A program made the translations under genes and the position numbers. This document shows positions 35,576-46,624 of a stretch of DNA of 64,000 nt, piece after piece. The notes under the pieces are model-generated. The model was given only the letters and a program-made list of their open reading frames with translations, was not told where the DNA came from and did not search any database. Each line of letters begins with the position of its first letter. Position 1 is the stretch's first letter. This DNA comes from a bacterium (lineage in GTDB: Bacteria; Patescibacteriota; Microgenomatia; UBA1406; GWC2-37-13). The DNA lies in contig JAKBEU010000003.1 of the NCBI GenBank assembly GCA_021833625.1, positions 62,001 through 126,000 on the forward strand, in the 5' to 3' direction.

Positions 35576-35689
35576 CGACTGGAGTCTTCAGTGAGGCTCT
35601 CCAGCCACAAAGAAAAAGAACCCGCAGGCACAAAAATGATCCGCTTTTCAGCAGGAAAGAATATCTTATAGTATTGACTATATTAGTTT

Positions 35690-36018
35690 GTGTGGTATAA
35701 TAAATAATAGAATATACATATCCAATATGTATATATAAATAACAAGGGGGTCTCCTACAAGCGTGGCGACCCGCACTTTGATTTTGGTTGTTTCTCTCTG
35801 GTATAGGCTTAAGCAATAGCTGCTTTTCCCCTTAATCATTTGAGAAACGTTCTTTGAAAACTAGGGATAGACAGATTTGATTCAACTAAAAAACACCTCA
35901 TCGTCTCTTCCGTTGGGGGCCCTTTTTAAAGGGCTCCAAACGGAAGAGAGGTGATGAAGTGTCGATTCGAAGAAGTGAAAAAGAAAGTCAACCAATCAGT
36001 TAAGGAGCAATTAGCATC
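35690..36018 (+). promoter_or_regulatory. Long structured leader with boxA-like signal upstream of the GC-rich gene
   Basis: GGTATAAT at 35695-35702 gives a promoter about 320 bp before the ATG. The leader contains a hairpin GGGTCTCC/GGCGACCC (from 35748), AAGCA/TGCTT (35811-35825), then TTCTTTGAAAAC at about 35850, which resembles the boxA of rRNA antitermination leaders, and a strong hairpin at 35894-35961. A clear Shine-Dalgarno TAAGGAG lies at 36001-36007. No protein is encoded in this stretch. Confidence 0.5.
35894..35961 (+). repeat. Long near-perfect hairpin in the leader
   Basis: The inner arms CTCTTCCGTT (35905-35914) and AACGGAAGAG (35939-35948) plus GCCCTTT/AAAGGGC (35919-35934) form a stem with one mismatch. 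The outer arms CACCTCATC and GATGAAGTG add eight pairs. No T-run follows, so it is not a terminator; it may be an RNase III-type processing stem or an mRNA stabiliser. Confidence 0.75.
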
Positions 36019-36768
36019 ATGAACAAGAACAAGAACGGAAAGCGTGTTTTGTGGACCCTTATCGCGGCGGCGATTCTTATCGCTTTCGCAGTCTGTGTCC
36101 AGCAGGTCACAAACCAGTCGCAGGTTGTTGAGGCCTCGTTCAAGTGGAGCGATGGCACAACGACCCAGAAGCCCTGGCATGTGATCTTTGGAAGCGACGA
36201 GGCCATCGACGGCGTCGTTAGCTACGATCAATACCTGTATTTTGTAACGAAAACCGGCGACCTTGAGGCAGCCGGGATACAGGTAAAGAATGAGTTGGCG
36301 GTAACCCCCGGAAAGCCCTGGACAGTTGTTTGGGGGAGTGACCGGGAGTTGAGCGGTGTCATCGTGATGGACGGTGTTGTTTATCTGACGTCAAAGACTG
36401 ACGTTCAGAATACTGCTCATTGCGGATGCACACCGACTTGCGAACAGGTGGTTGTGGAGATTGCAACCCCCACGCCAACCAACACGTACGTCCCGAGCGT
36501 TACGAATACGCCCGGTGCGACCTCAACCCCAGGAAACCCGACGGCAACGTCGACCCCTGGGACCCCGCCCACCCTGACCCCCGTTGTCCCCACCTCAACC
36601 CCCGTGAAACCCACAGAGCCGCCCGTTGTTCCAACGGTTAAGGCTAAGAATGGGAATTGCGGAGTCGGCAATGGAGTCGATCCGAACACCCCAGGGTGTT
36701 CGAACTGGCCCAATGACGGCGCAGGTTCAGGCAAGGGTAATCCCGGTCATCGCGGCGGCAAGAAGTAA
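36019..36768 (+). CDS. GC-rich P/T-rich secreted protein with two tandem repeats
   Basis: The 249-aa protein has a signal anchor (VLWTLIAAAILIAFAVCV), then two related modules KPWHVIFGSDEAIDGV and KPWTVVWGSDRELSGV, a Thr/Pro-rich stalk (residues about 145-205), and a C-terminal NCGVGNGVDPNTPG...NPGHRGGKK segment. Such VGNGVDPxxPG tails recur, from memory, in secreted bacterial proteins and may be an anchoring or processing signal. The gene is visibly richer in G and C than all neighbours, with C-ending codons, suggesting high expression or transfer. It has a strong Shine-Dalgarno, unlike most genes here. Confidence 0.75.
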   Translation: MNKNKNGKRVLWTLIAAAILIAFAVCVQQVTNQSQVVEASFKWSDGTTTQKPWHVIFGSDEAIDGVVSYDQYLYFVTKTGDLEAAGIQVKNELAVTPGKPWTVVWGSDRELSGVIVMDGVVYLTSKTDVQNTAHCGCTPTCEQVVVEIATPTPTNTYVPSVTNTPGATSTPGNPTATSTPGTPPTLTPVVPTSTPVKPTEPPVVPTVKAKNGNCGVGNGVDPNTPGCSNWPNDGAGSGKGNPGHRGGKK

Positions 36769-36803
36769 GTACCGAATGTAGTGAGTCACAGTTGATCATC
36801 TCT

Positions 36804-36912
36804 CTTCCCTAGAAGGGAAGGATGGCAGGAGCATCACACGCTCCGGTGGATGAGACGGCACTAACCGTCTCTATTGCACTTTCGCAATAAAAAAATCTAC
36901 CCCATCCTTCCC
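36804..36912 (+). ncRNA. Candidate structured RNA with stacked three-way junctions
   Basis: P1 is an 11-bp perfect pair (36815-36825 with 36902-36912). Inside are P2 (36828-36832/36840-36844), P3 (36845-36851/36895-36901), P4 (36852-36858/36865-36871) and P5 (36873-36877/36884-36888). Helices are separated by 0-2 bases, except an A-run next to P5. A competing hairpin, CTTCCCT/AGGGAAG (36804-36820), would break P1, giving a two-state switch. It lies 46 bp after the GC-rich gene and before a terminator at 37065. No Rfam class is recognised. Confidence 0.6.
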
Positions 36913-37064
36913 ATCTTCCCCCAGCTACACTTGAAAAATAGCGTATCAGGGAGAAGATACATAAAAACACCTCTCTCTATCTTTTTTTGTGCAAGTAGAT
37001 TATTATAAGAGTAATGATTAGTGAGCGTGCTATTTATCTAACCATTATCGGGTGTAGTTTTTAA

Positions 37065-37089
37065 GACAGCGAAAGCTGTCTCTTTTTTT
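37065..37089 (+). terminator. Rho-independent terminator
   Basis: GACAGC-GAAA-GCTGTC followed by a T-rich tail with seven consecutive T. It would end the transcript that includes the structured RNA at 36804-36912, or act as a switchable terminator for the gene at 37117. Confidence 0.8.
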
Positions 37090-37116: not shown

Positions 37117-37590
37117 ATGAGTATCAAAAGAACGTTGTTGGGAGTGTTGATGGGAATTTTAGTACTAGGAATATTTGCGGTTCCAACGTTAGCAACAAAC
37201 AAGATGACTGACAAGGTGCGACTGAAGTCGCTTGGCACTATGACAATAGGCAACTTAATTGGCACAGTAAACGGGATAAGCAGCTCCATCATTATGGACG
37301 GAAATTATATTGAGATATATTGTGACTCCGTACAGCGCATTCAAATTTTTAAAAACTATTTTGAAGACAAACAATCCTGTAAGATTGTCTCTACAGAGAA
37401 TATCCCCAACAGATCATCTATCTCTTTTTTTTCGAGCAAAGGTGAAAATTGCCCAGCAATAGGGAGTGATCAATGTTGGTATTCGGACTATGTTTATGCA
37501 ACAACTCAAGAATATCAATTGGCAAACTGGGGTACACGAGTTGTTAAATCTGATGGTACGGTAAACATCATTTCATTTTATAACCTTTGA
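37117..37590 (+). CDS. 157-aa secreted hypothetical protein
   Basis: A signal peptide (MSIKRTLLGVLMGILVLGIF...LAT) leads a mature part of about 130 aa with beta-rich character and four cysteines (C near residues 69, 88, 112, 119) that may pair. No known domain is recognised. It lies 27 bp after a terminator, so regulation by the upstream structured RNA is possible. Confidence 0.65.
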   Translation: MSIKRTLLGVLMGILVLGIFAVPTLATNKMTDKVRLKSLGTMTIGNLIGTVNGISSSIIMDGNYIEIYCDSVQRIQIFKNYFEDKQSCKIVSTENIPNRSSISFFSSKGENCPAIGSDQCWYSDYVYATTQEYQLANWGTRVVKSDGTVNIISFYNL

Positions 37591-41392: not shown

Positions 41393-42646
41393 TTAGCACG
41401 CATAGGGAGCGCTTTTACCGCACTCTTTTCTCGGACAGGTGATGGTCCCGTTTGCGATAACTGCCTTCACTTTCTGCTTGCAGTACGGGCACGTACAATC
41501 GAGAGTATCCGCCTTTATTTTCTGTAAAGATTGTTCTGGGGGTGTTCCTTGCGTGAGAGACTGGAGTATTTCGGCGTTTGATATGACCCTGTTCTCAAGA
41601 GGATTGACGCCCGGAATGGTGGGACAGCTTCCTGCCGCGGCTGTTGGAAGGCGCGAAGCGTTGCTTTGAAGAACGGCAACTCTATCGTAAAGTCTTTTTT
41701 GGTCTAGTTGTGTCTGTACTCTAACACCGCTTTCAAATACCGGAGAAGGGTTAGGTTTTTCATCCCTTATTTCTTCGGCGTTTTGATAGATGGTGAGCAA
41801 TATTTTTTTTGCCTCAATAAGTCCTTGTTGATATAAAAACGAGTGGGGATCAAATGCGGCGAGAGAACACATTATTTCGCTATATTTCCGAATCCATATA
41901 CCCAAACGGGCATCGACTGACTGTTCGAACTGGCGCGAGAACTGTATTTTTTCTTCGTCAATCCCGATAAGGCGCATCACTTCTTCAACATTTTCTTTTT
42001 TGTCTACATGTTTTCCGAAAATAGGATGAAGCAAATATTCGTCGGTACTTAAAGGAGAGGAGTCTTGGGCGCTTATATTGGAAAAAAGTCGGGAGCTTTT
42101 TGTAAGTTCGCCCCGCTTTTCCGGATATCGGAGAATATATTCTTTTACGAATCCCTGATTGTCTTTTTCAAGAACGAAAACAAAACCGTAGTCCGCGATT
42201 TTCGGAGGGGATACCCAAAAAGCGGAGGTGTCACCACTGCCTTTTTTAAATTCCTGTTCAATCTGTTCAAATCCGTTTGTTTCCGCTTTTTCCCGTTCTC
42301 CCCCGAGTCGTGCGGCAGTTCTGTAGGAATCCATGACGTGAAGTCCCGCATACGAAAAACCCTCGCCATCTACTTCATAGGGAATGGTCGTGTAGGGGAT
42401 TTTTCCCACAAACTCTCCCAGAAAGCGTTTTACGTTTTCTTCCACATAGTATGTTTTTTTAGAAAGAGAAAGATTCTCCGCTTTCTTAAGAAACGCAACT
42501 TCATTCTCGAGTGAATAATAGTGGAAAATCGAGTCAGACCGTTTTTCGTAATCGCTTAGCCAGTGAGGGCTTTTACTTTCATGAAAATGATGCGGAAAGG
42601 TTTCGGGTAAGGGGTTTCGAGTTCTGACTGCTTCAAGATACGGCAT
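41393..42646 (-). CDS. 417-aa hypothetical protein with C-terminal zinc ribbon, behind a cobalamin riboswitch
   Basis: The protein is soluble, with no signal peptide. The N-terminal half carries His-rich HHFHESKSPHW and mixed strands and helices; the C-terminus has a four-cysteine zinc ribbon (CPYCKQK and CPRKECG). I recognise no family. The start at 42646 is used because AGGG sits 9 nt upstream inside the riboswitch expression region. Riboswitch control suggests a role linked to B12 supply, use or replacement, but nothing in the sequence identifies an enzyme. Confidence 0.65.
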   Translation of the reverse strand: MPYLEAVRTRNPLPETFPHHFHESKSPHWLSDYEKRSDSIFHYYSLENEVAFLKKAENLSLSKKTYYVEENVKRFLGEFVGKIPYTTIPYEVDGEGFSYAGLHVMDSYRTAARLGGEREKAETNGFEQIEQEFKKGSGDTSAFWVSPPKIADYGFVFVLEKDNQGFVKEYILRYPEKRGELTKSSRLFSNISAQDSSPLSTDEYLLHPIFGKHVDKKENVEEVMRLIGIDEEKIQFSRQFEQSVDARLGIWIRKYSEIMCSLAAFDPHSFLYQQGLIEAKKILLTIYQNAEEIRDEKPNPSPVFESGVRVQTQLDQKRLYDRVAVLQSNASRLPTAAAGSCPTIPGVNPLENRVISNAEILQSLTQGTPPEQSLQKIKADTLDCTCPYCKQKVKAVIANGTITCPRKECGKSAPYAC

Positions 42647-42680
42647 ACCATTTTTCCCTGCACGGGGATGCGAACAATTC

Positions 42681-42792
42681 TTGTCTTGATCGGTCTTCGG
42701 ACTTTTTGAAATGAATCAAATTACCGCTGCGGCACAGTCACTGATTTACACAGTGTTCCCAACGCATCTTATGTATGATGCCATCAAGACAA
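42681..42792 (-). promoter_or_regulatory. Cobalamin (B12) riboswitch
   Basis: On the minus strand a 10-bp P1 (TTGTCTTGAT/ATCAAGACAA, forward 42783-42792 and 42681-42690) encloses the known core. GGGAA (forward 42756-42760) is followed by the CACTG/CAGTG hairpin with TGTAAAT loop. Then come ACTGTGCCGCAGCGGTAA (forward 42721-42738), a hairpin, and AGTCCGAAGACC (forward 42692-42703). These match the cobalamin riboswitch consensus (GGGAA...GGTGAAAATCC...CTGTCCCGCAACGGTAA...AGTCCGGAGACC). A downstream CCC/GGG pair near 42656-42666 overlaps the ribosome site of the next gene, so control may be translational. Confidence 0.85.
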
Positions 42793-43332
42793 ATAATAAT
42801 CGGACAATCGACTCACGAATAATACCACTTTTTTCGACAAGAAAAAGAGTAAACGAAACCCAACATAAAAAAGGATATTAAAAAACAGATCGCCCACAAG
42901 TGTATTTCGGAAGAAAGGGAGCCCCATTACATAAGACTCAAGAAGTCCGGATGCATTTTTCGCATACATCGTACCCGTTGCCCAGACACCAAAATTTGTT
43001 ATGAGGAAAAAAAGCACCGATCCTACCAAACTTACACCCCCGACTCTTAAGGGGCTCATTTTTTTGCGGATTAAATATCCCATTCCGACAATAAGAGCAA
43101 AGCTACCGTATACATAGGGGAGTGTCAGGTGAAAGCCAAGGAATGCATCAGAAATGCCCATAGAGACAAAAGGAATAGCAATGGCCCACAAAGATGGCAC
43201 TGTCATCCCCGAAAAGAGGGCAAGGGCCCCGATAGGGGTTATGTTGGGGATATGAGGGATGAGTCGCATGAAAACTGCACAGGCAATGATTGCGACGAAT
43301 GCGATATATGTTTCGAGTTTATTTTTTTTCAT
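42784..43332 (-). CDS. DUF6580 / ECF-type substrate-binding membrane component
   Basis: This 182-aa protein has five to six hydrophobic helices and short loops, the size and shape of an S component of ECF vitamin transporters. It lies at the end of the B12 operon, one base after the DUF4430 gene, so it likely brings cobalamin or a precursor into the cell. The matching EcfA/EcfT energising subunits are not in this window. Its final codons overlap the riboswitch P1 5' strand. Confidence 0.75.
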   Translation of the reverse strand: MKKNKLETYIAFVAIIACAVFMRLIPHIPNITPIGALALFSGMTVPSLWAIAIPFVSMGISDAFLGFHLTLPYVYGSFALIVGMGYLIRKKMSPLRVGGVSLVGSVLFFLITNFGVWATGTMYAKNASGLLESYVMGLPFFRNTLVGDLFFNILFYVGFRLLFFLSKKVVLFVSRLSDYYLS

Positions 43333-44266: not shown

Positions 44267-46624
44267 TCACGAGCATTCGGAATATCCACATGAATAACAC
44301 TTTTTACATCCTTCTTCGTGCGCTAAGGACGCCTCGCCACAAGAGGGACAAATATCAAAAAATCCTTTTGGCTGCGGAGGAGGGATAAGGGATGCTTGCG
44401 TTGTTTCCGTCACCAAGCGTGGACTGTCCTTCTTTTCTTCAGGAGTACTGCCGACGTTGTAGTGCATTTTAAGTACTTTGGCTACTGCATCGGGAAGACT
44501 CTTAATTCTGTCTTTCCCAAATCCCATTGTGCGCGCTCCGCCAATTCCTTCCAATTGATTGATGATTTCCTGAACACGCTGCATTGCCGGCATACCGGAT
44601 GCAAAGCGAAGGGCGAGGGAAATAGTGCGGGCAAGTCCTTCAGCCATGGCGGAAATATCACTTCCCGGTTTGCTAATACTGATAAATACTTCCAACGGTT
44701 CCGGAGGCGTTCCTCCGTTTGTGTTGATCGTGATGAACGCGGTTCCAACAGGCGTGTTCATGCGGTATGTCGAACCATGTACGACCATCGGACGCGGTTT
44801 TACCTGTGGCTGTGGCACTACTACGGCTTCTTTCTTCTCTTCTTTTTTATCCGTTCTTTCAAGTACCCCTGCACGTGATCCTTCTCTCATGTAGGCAATT
44901 CCTTTAAGGCCTTTTTTGTACGCCATCATGTAGAGATTTTTTACGTCCTCAATCGTATGGGACTGCGGAGCGTTGACCGTTTTTGAAATGGAGGCATCCA
45001 CATATTTTTGAATAACTGCCTGAACGTCGATATGTTCTTCCGGGGTTAATTCCTGAGCGGACACAAACCATGCCGGCCGTTTCAGCTTTCCTTCCTTCAC
45101 TTCTTTCTCATGTTTCTTCACCCATTTTTCGTACAGATGATGACGCATGAAATGTTCGCCCAATCGGTCGCGTCTTATGAATTCAAATTCAAACACCGGT
45201 TCGATTCCGGACGTGGTATCAACCATGAGTGATGTTGATCCTGTTGGCGCCTGCATGAGGAGAAGGGAGTTGCGGATTCCTTTATCCGCGATTTCTTTTT
45301 GGACTTCTTTCGGAAGTTGCTGGATAAATTTTCCTTTCAGATACAACTCCTTGTCAAACTTCATGAACGACCCTTTTTCTTTTGCAAATTCGGCGGAGGC
45401 CTTATATGCTTCGTCTCTGATTATCTTATATACCTTATCGATAAAGACGAGGGATTCTTTTGAACCGTATTTTAAATGCAGTCTGATAAGTGTATCACCA
45501 AGCCCCATGGTACCAAGTCCTATGCGGCGCTCTCCCTCAAGTTGTGTTTTTCTTATGCCTTCAAAAAAATACTGATCCATGTCGATGACATTATCCTGGA
45601 ATCTGACTCCTGCACGGACTATTTTTTTAAGTTCTCCAAAGTCAAATGTCGCCTTTTTGTCGATGTCGCTTCCTTTTACAAGAGCGGAGAGGTTAATAGA
45701 TCCCAAATTACAAACGCCCCAAGGAGGAAGTCCTTCTTCTCCACAAGGATTGACGCAGTTAATGCGGTTCCAATACCAGTTGTTGTGCCACTTATTATAC
45801 CGTTCCATGAATACGAGACCCGGCTCAGCAGAGCGCCAAGCGGCTTCTGCAATAAGTCCCCATAATTTTCGTGCTTTAAGGGTCTTGCGGACGACAACAG
45901 CTTTTCCGAGAGCCTTCCAGGCAAATATATCGCCGTTCCATTTTTCGTCATATTCGGGGTCGGTCGTGTCGGGGAAGACAAGATCCCAGTCAGCATCCTT
46001 ATCAACCGCTTCCATGAAGCTGTCCGAAACGCAGACTGACAGGTTCGCTCCATTTATACGTTTCAGATCCTGTTTTACCGTGATGAATTCCTCAATATCT
46101 GGATGCCAGTCCCACAGCATAAGCATGAGGGCGCCGCGTCTTGTTCCTCCCTGTTGAATAATATCCTTTGTTGCAACGGAGAACAATTCTGCCCAGTTAA
46201 TGGGGCCTGAAGAAAATCCATTCACTTTTTTTACCCGTGACCCGCGGGGACGAAGGGAGGAGAGATTTATTCCAACGCCGCCTCCCCGAGCCATAATCTC
46301 CACCATCTGTTTTAATGTTTCAATGATGCCGTCGCGTGCATCTTTGGGGCTTGGGATAACAAAACAGTTATAGAATGTGACGTCAAATCCTGTTCCGGCA
46401 CCTGCCAAAATACGACCCCCCGGCACGTATTTAAAATCTTTCATCGCACTGTTAAACTCTTTTGCCCATTTTTTCTTATCCTCCGGAGTTTTCTCATTGT
46501 CCGCAACCGCTTTTGAAATCCGTTTCCACATTTCTTCTGGTTTCTTTTCGATAGGCTTGCCCAGCTTGTCTTTTAGGGCATAACGATCTGAAAATACCTT
46601 TTCCGCGACACCAGTGAGTTTCAT
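44267..46624 (-). CDS. nrdJ: Adenosylcobalamin-dependent ribonucleotide reductase (class II)
   Basis: This 785-aa enzyme reduces ribonucleotides to deoxyribonucleotides using adenosylcobalamin to start radical chemistry. Motifs are FYNCFVIP and the NPCGEE catalytic cysteine loop (near residue 300), GGGVGINLSSLRPRG, and QAPTGSTSLM. The C-terminus has four cysteines in CPSCGEAS and CYSCGYS, a zinc ribbon that probably shuttles reducing power. It stands 27 bp downstream of nrdR, its likely repressor. Confidence 0.96.
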   Translation of the reverse strand: MKLTGVAEKVFSDRYALKDKLGKPIEKKPEEMWKRISKAVADNEKTPEDKKKWAKEFNSAMKDFKYVPGGRILAGAGTGFDVTFYNCFVIPSPKDARDGIIETLKQMVEIMARGGGVGINLSSLRPRGSRVKKVNGFSSGPINWAELFSVATKDIIQQGGTRRGALMLMLWDWHPDIEEFITVKQDLKRINGANLSVCVSDSFMEAVDKDADWDLVFPDTTDPEYDEKWNGDIFAWKALGKAVVVRKTLKARKLWGLIAEAAWRSAEPGLVFMERYNKWHNNWYWNRINCVNPCGEEGLPPWGVCNLGSINLSALVKGSDIDKKATFDFGELKKIVRAGVRFQDNVIDMDQYFFEGIRKTQLEGERRIGLGTMGLGDTLIRLHLKYGSKESLVFIDKVYKIIRDEAYKASAEFAKEKGSFMKFDKELYLKGKFIQQLPKEVQKEIADKGIRNSLLLMQAPTGSTSLMVDTTSGIEPVFEFEFIRRDRLGEHFMRHHLYEKWVKKHEKEVKEGKLKRPAWFVSAQELTPEEHIDVQAVIQKYVDASISKTVNAPQSHTIEDVKNLYMMAYKKGLKGIAYMREGSRAGVLERTDKKEEKKEAVVVPQPQVKPRPMVVHGSTYRMNTPVGTAFITINTNGGTPPEPLEVFISISKPGSDISAMAEGLARTISLALRFASGMPAMQRVQEIINQLEGIGGARTMGFGKDRIKSLPDAVAKVLKMHYNVGSTPEEKKDSPRLVTETTQASLIPPPQPKGFFDICPSCGEASLAHEEGCKKCYSCGYSECS

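Follow-up and report, generated by a model that had tools for sequence, protein, structure and literature searches.

The element at positions 36815-36912 lies in the window, by which we mean the whole 64,000-nucleotide stretch of DNA that was analysed, within a region of the plus strand designated locus A. The region begins with a promoter TTGACT-16-TATAAT carrying a TG before the -10 box (35674-35701), which agrees with the consensus at 11 of 12 positions. Between this promoter and the gene lies a leader of 310 nt, which contains a hairpin AAGC-[AAUAGCU]-GCUU in a boxB-like position (35811-35825) upstream of a boxA, GTTCTTTGAAAACT (35849-35862), the leader strand of a leader-trailer helix (35861-35887), a long imperfect hairpin (35893-35962; -45.5 kcal/mol, z -8.3), and the ribosome binding site AAGGAG (36002-36007). 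The gene at 36019-36768, with a GC content of 57%, encodes an orphan exported protein of 249 amino acids with an N-terminal hydrophobic segment and a Thr/Pro-rich linker. It is followed by the trailer strand of the helix, AGTTGATCATCTCTCTTCCCTAG (36790-36812), by a branched 3′ domain (36811-36916), and by an intrinsic terminator, AGACAGCGAAAGCTGTCT plus a T-run (37064-37088), which is the probable 3′ end. Read from the sequence, a predicted transcript runs from the promoter at 35674 to the terminator at 37064 around the 249-aa gene, and the element makes up its 3′ domain. Searches for protein homologues of this gene and of the downstream 157-aa gene found none, and the sequence following the conserved neighbour gene VIT1 differs in genomes of the same genus; the region of locus A is lineage specific.

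Folding of positions 36800-36930 (plus strand) recovered the nested fold of the sequence-only reading, in which an 11-bp stem P1 encloses four further helices. P1 consists of 11 perfect base pairs (36815-36825/36902-36912), and the enclosed helices are hp1 (36828-36832/36840-36844), P2 (36845-36851/36895-36901), hp2 (36852-36858/36865-36871), and hp3 (36872-36877/36884-36889), which together form two stacked three-way junctions. The domain also includes an A-rich strand ending in AAAATC. The minimum free energy was -54 kcal/mol compared to -26.8 ± 2.9 kcal/mol for shuffled sequences (z -9.4), and none of 200 shuffles was equally stable, which bears out the earlier claim that such nested pairing is improbable by chance. 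The minus strand of the element also folds, in a less exceptional manner (z -4.3), and the plus strand is favoured as the RNA because of a G-U pair in P2. A terminator had been noted 3′ of the element and was found at 37064-37088. The proposal that a competing hairpin could break P1 held in part: the hairpin CTTCCCT-AGA-AGGGAAG (36804-36820) is present and shares bases with the trailer strand as well as with the 5′ arm of P1, yet P1 is favoured over it in the full-length fold. An equivalent overlap of a competing hairpin, AAGCTTCT..AGAAGCTT, occurs in locus B described below and is not clear in the remaining loci. Several other assignments of the element were considered and rejected. It is not an intrinsic terminator, as the sequence from 36913 onward reads AUCUUCCCCCAGC and the true terminator lies at 37064, nor a known riboswitch, there being no Rfam aptamer and the element, in the loci read, lying on the 3′ side of its gene; readings as attC, MITE, or DGR were discarded as well.

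A structure scan of the 1.1-Mb genome, whose small size and gene content would fit Patescibacteria, with 110-nt windows and a composition-corrected score, covering 52,000 of 54,768 windows/strands, ranked the element third. First place went to the long leader hairpin of the same predicted transcript (35893-35962), which indicates that locus A is extraordinary as a whole, beyond the 98 bases originally reported. Other top-ranked windows were likewise paired at distances of 800-960 nt, and reading them yielded three further loci on contig C2 of the same genome: locus B (273.9-275.1 kb, plus strand), locus C (332.6-334.0 kb, plus strand), and locus D (338.2-339.2 kb, minus strand). Each has a near-consensus promoter (TTGAAA-17-TATAAT, TTGACA-17-TATACT, and TTGAAT-17-TATAAT, respectively), a structured leader with a long hairpin, an orphan gene, and a branched 3′ domain. 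The encoded lipoproteins or membrane proteins are mutually unrelated, and none matched a Pfam family. In their 3′ domains (folding z -7.1 for B, -7.1 for C, and -6.2 for D), an outer P1 of ~7-11 bp surrounds a second stem, P2; the hairpins hp2 and hp3 stand next to each other, and AAAATC recurs in an A-rich strand.

A search for boxA in eight relatives returned three further loci, all in a one-contig genome from another genus of the family (G009), the other matches being rRNA leaders or sites inside genes. Locus L132 encodes a 226-aa membrane-anchored Thr/Pro-rich protein, and L135 a 177-aa lipoprotein. L173 (also L133) has two ORFs; a glycosyltransferase comes after them, as it does at locus C. 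The 3′ domains of L135 and L173 have a P1 of 11-12 bp and z values of -6.5 and -8.8. The seven loci A, B, C, D, L132, L135, and L173, from two genera, have in common the order promoter, structured leader, boxA, unrelated exported protein, and branched 3′ domain; the long leader hairpin is present in most of them, not in all.

This recurrence is one of layout, and the searches by similarity gave little. With the element as query, only the element itself scored above chance in its own genome and 144 relatives, and a single-sequence covariance model detected only itself in 280 relatives. On a 60-kb slice selected because it contains B, C, and D, this model of the element, run unfiltered, placed B first (E 0.0014) and D second. 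A four-sequence covariance model of the own-genome 3′ domains (R2) retrieved from this genome only the sequences it had been trained on, gave no match in 34 relatives, and did not lift the 3′ domains of G009 above noise. In the alignment of the own-genome 3′ domains (A3) the share of paired cells was 98%, a figure that is circular by construction since the domains were stacked by hand, and the pair counts of this covariance model are for the same reason circular and not evidence. A search with the exact boxA GCTCTTTGAAAA found no such loci in the two fragmented genomes of the same genus or elsewhere in the family, and an Rfam scan of the window and loci B-D gave no match to GOLLD, ROOL, or OLE.

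The boxA sequences of A, C (GCTCTTTGAAAACT), and B (TGCACTTTGACAAG) match those of the organism's own rRNA leaders (TGCTCTTTGAAAAG in the 16S leader and AGCACTTTGAAAAT in the 23S leader), and that of D (GCTCTTTTACATTT) is weak. The strict pattern G[CT][TA]CTTTGA[AC]AA occurs 11 times in 1.1 Mb. Six occurrences are within real ORFs, and the remaining five are those of the 16S leader, the 23S leader, A, B, and C only, the match at B being counted as outside real ORFs as it overlaps only a spurious antisense ORF. A relaxed pattern, widened to admit D, was found outside genes behind a strong promoter at seven places, five of which are 16S, A, B, C, and D; the boxA of B and of D were recognised after these loci had been selected. 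Exact searches for a longer boxA returned none but the organism's own among 57 relatives.

Upstream of boxA, a hairpin with the loop AAUAGCU is present in four of the seven loci (A, B, C, and L173). The loop is invariant and closed by C-G, while the stems differ and are paired in each case (AAGC/GCUU, AAAGC/GCUUU, CUUCUC/GAGAAG, and UGGCC/GGCUA). To our knowledge this loop is not a known boxB, and the exact AAUAGCU-boxA pattern gave only chance matches lacking the stem in genome and viral collections. A motif CCTACAAG was noted in or near hairpins of three leaders, A (35755-35762), C, and L132, and might be a second leader element. Separately, the boxA GCTCTTTGAAAA occurs within the first 100 bases of five contigs of genome G004 (C8, C13, C24, C33, and C35), as if a boxA-bearing repeat broke the assembly at these five contig starts. 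Two genera (L169 in G013 and L181 in G032) also have the boxA-like GCTCTTTGAAAA in front of a glmS-like gene (MCGIFGVV...), at a distance of ~200-270 nt.

Directly after boxA, the leader strand is complementary to a stretch of the 3′ untranslated region between the stop codon and the 3′ domain, so that one or two ORFs for exported proteins lie between leader strand and trailer strand. Compared to shuffled sequences, the cognate duplexes were stable in A (-24.2 kcal/mol, p 0.02), B (-27.1 kcal/mol, p 0.001), and C (-30.5 kcal/mol, p 0.001), and that of D (-15.9 kcal/mol) was no better than shuffles (p 0.72). The G009 loci have helices right after boxA of 13/13 (L132), 14/15 (L135), and 12/12 nt (L173). 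When gapped duplexes were scored for all 5040 permutations of 5′ and 3′ strands over the seven loci, the cognate pairing was the best; it also ranked first of 720 when L173 was left out, because its strand resembles that of locus C. A, B, C, L132, and L135 were each best in their own row of the permutation matrix. Scoring the helices without gaps failed to distinguish A-D because of the bulges that they contain. Since the strands differ between loci and match within loci, this permutation test stands in for classical covariation. In the 16S and 23S rRNA units of the same genome, boxA is likewise followed at once by the leader-trailer helix (-37.6 and -44.9 kcal/mol). An alternative pairing between the untranslated regions of locus A was also observed, of 35942-35962 with 36788-36808 (19 of 21 positions paired, one G-U), which competes with the long hairpin and the main leader-trailer helix.

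The coding sequences are folded as well. Excess structure was measured against synonymous-codon shuffles, which keep protein and codon usage and were used in place of a regression on GC, where the leverage of the GC-rich A and C made the method unsuitable for them. The z values were -7.0 for A, -6.4 for B, -7.3 for C, -3.2 for D, and -3.8 for the second ORF of L173, and 13 control ORFs ranged from -2.4 to +0.8. L132 and L135 showed weak excess structure (z -1.7 and -1.9). When 133 ORFs from this genome were ranked by excess structure (70 chosen for the lowest minimum free energy per base, 60 random ones, and a few extra), B came first, A second, and C fifth.

Taken together, these features suggest that the element is probably the 3′ domain of an mRNA built on the plan of an rRNA precursor. 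The rrn unit has boxB-boxA-boxC, an antitermination complex, and a leader-trailer helix that begins after boxA (PMC10250234). The loci described here have the same strong promoter, hairpin upstream of boxA, helix directly after boxA, and folded body, but here the body is the gene of an orphan exported protein, and there is a branched 3′ domain beyond the trailer strand. The rRNAs of the genome lie elsewhere; with an ORF as the body, the loci would work like rrn units but are not members of them. NusB/S10 and partners would bind boxA and thereby shield RNA polymerase from Rho while it makes an RNA whose heavy folding would keep ribosomes from staying close behind. Decay would be held back by the leader-trailer helix together with the densely structured ends, RNase III may cleave the helix as in pre-rRNA, and the outcome would be an abundant, long-lived mRNA for a surface protein. 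As the trailer strand of locus A overlaps the competing hairpin, closing of P1 would open this hairpin and may thereby free the trailer strand for the leader.

Other known systems resemble the loci in part. The boxA-bearing mRNAs of the suhB type, for which boxA had been looked for no further than 50 bp from the start codon and in which it represses translation (PMC5725501), also carry boxA in the leader. In A-D, however, boxA lies 159-257 nt upstream of the start codon and is coupled to a leader-trailer helix, and because of this distance control of the suhB type does not fit. The lambda nut site has a boxA adjoining a small hairpin with a conserved loop, but here the hairpin precedes boxA, the order found in rrn units, and no N-like protein was identified. 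GOLLD, ROOL, and OLE are likewise large, GC-rich, multibranched bacterial RNAs, whereas the loci here show no Rfam similarity to them and an ORF fills the body. LOOT RNA (RF03000) is a structured RNA in the same genome that differs in sequence and layout and lies upstream of a gene rather than 3′ of one.

Hairpins at the 5′ and 3′ ends that protect mRNAs are common, and judged by their promoters the genes look highly expressed; the element could thus be an ordinary stabilising 3′ untranslated region of a strongly transcribed surface-protein gene, with boxA and the long-range pairing incidental. We give this explanation some weight but consider it unlikely, as it leaves unexplained the rRNA-type boxA at A, B, C, and the three G009 loci, the cognate leader-trailer pairing, and the structured coding sequence. 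If instead the RNA itself were the functional product, a dual-function large structured RNA like GOLLD, ROOL, or OLE that also encodes protein, the dense structure across leader, ORF, and 3′ domain and the end-closing helix would be accounted for. This is quite improbable in our judgement, because the ORFs carry lipoprotein or membrane signals, with a clear ribosome binding site at A, the proteins vary while the RNA frame persists, and the sequence has no Rfam match and is not conserved as in the core of a functional RNA.

A compact stable domain followed by a terminator would also suit an sRNA derived from the 3′ untranslated region, in which a cut by RNase III in the leader-trailer helix or P1 releases the 3′ domain. 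The loops differ between loci and no conserved unpaired seed region is present, and we see only a slim chance for this explanation. The sequence-only reading had taken the element for a structured RNA, which the fold upholds, and proposed as alternatives such a processed small RNA and a riboswitch-like switch; both leave out the larger unit, a transcript module of rRNA type built around a gene. The switch had in its favour the competing hairpin and the terminator in front of the gene at 37117. A riboswitch or attenuator for this downstream gene is nonetheless very improbable: the element is the 3′ end of the transcript of the upstream gene and its counterparts sit 3′ of other, unrelated genes, the isolated terminator that ends the transcript is 150 nt away with no antiterminator pairing seen, and an Rfam scan of the element found no aptamer and no family at gathering level or even at E 5. 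Next to no credence is left for an element acting at the DNA level (MITE, REP, or integron attC) whose inverted repeats mimic RNA structure. It would explain why an 11-bp terminal inverted repeat lies next to a lineage-specific gene of high GC content, but there is no second sequence copy in the genome, the plus strand folds more strongly and has a G-U pair, and the counterparts have layout and not sequence in common.

Antitermination at boxA and leader-trailer helices are regarded as a hallmark of rRNA synthesis. Going beyond the reading of the element as the 3′ domain of an mRNA on the rRNA-precursor plan, we tentatively propose, as a possibility that falls somewhat short of an even chance, a class of transcripts for fast-evolving surface proteins with pre-rRNA-like folding and maturation, perhaps served by a host antitermination factor dedicated to the AAUAGCU loop. 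The features of the class would be the boxB-like hairpin, boxA, the leader-trailer helix, a globally structured coding sequence, and the branched 3′ domain. No precedent for boxA in this bacterial group or for mRNAs with leader-trailer helices was found in the literature searched, which lay outside most subscription journals; as far as we could find, the components are each known and their assembly on mRNAs with a folded coding sequence is new. If the proposal is correct, mRNAs can draw on the cell's programme for stable RNAs, with the coding sequence selected for folding. Questions that would then become testable are the roles of leader-trailer helices apart from ribosome assembly, the ability of boxA alone to shield folded mRNAs against Rho, and the existence of a host protein that recognises the boxB-like loop.

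Further elements were noted in the genome and the window. The LOOT RNA (C1:7253-7370, L031) is immediately followed by a lipoprotein-like gene (C1:7465-7998), and the coding RNA of this gene also has some excess structure. A Cobalamin riboswitch (RF00174) is located on the minus strand of the window at 42671-42803, upstream of a 417-aa gene (41393-42646, minus strand) and near a ribonucleotide reductase gene (44267-46624). A recurrent REP-like palindrome like GCGACCTTTAAGGTCGC is found on contig C2 near 195556, 243521, 275080, and 338161, and also near the ends of cassettes B and D.
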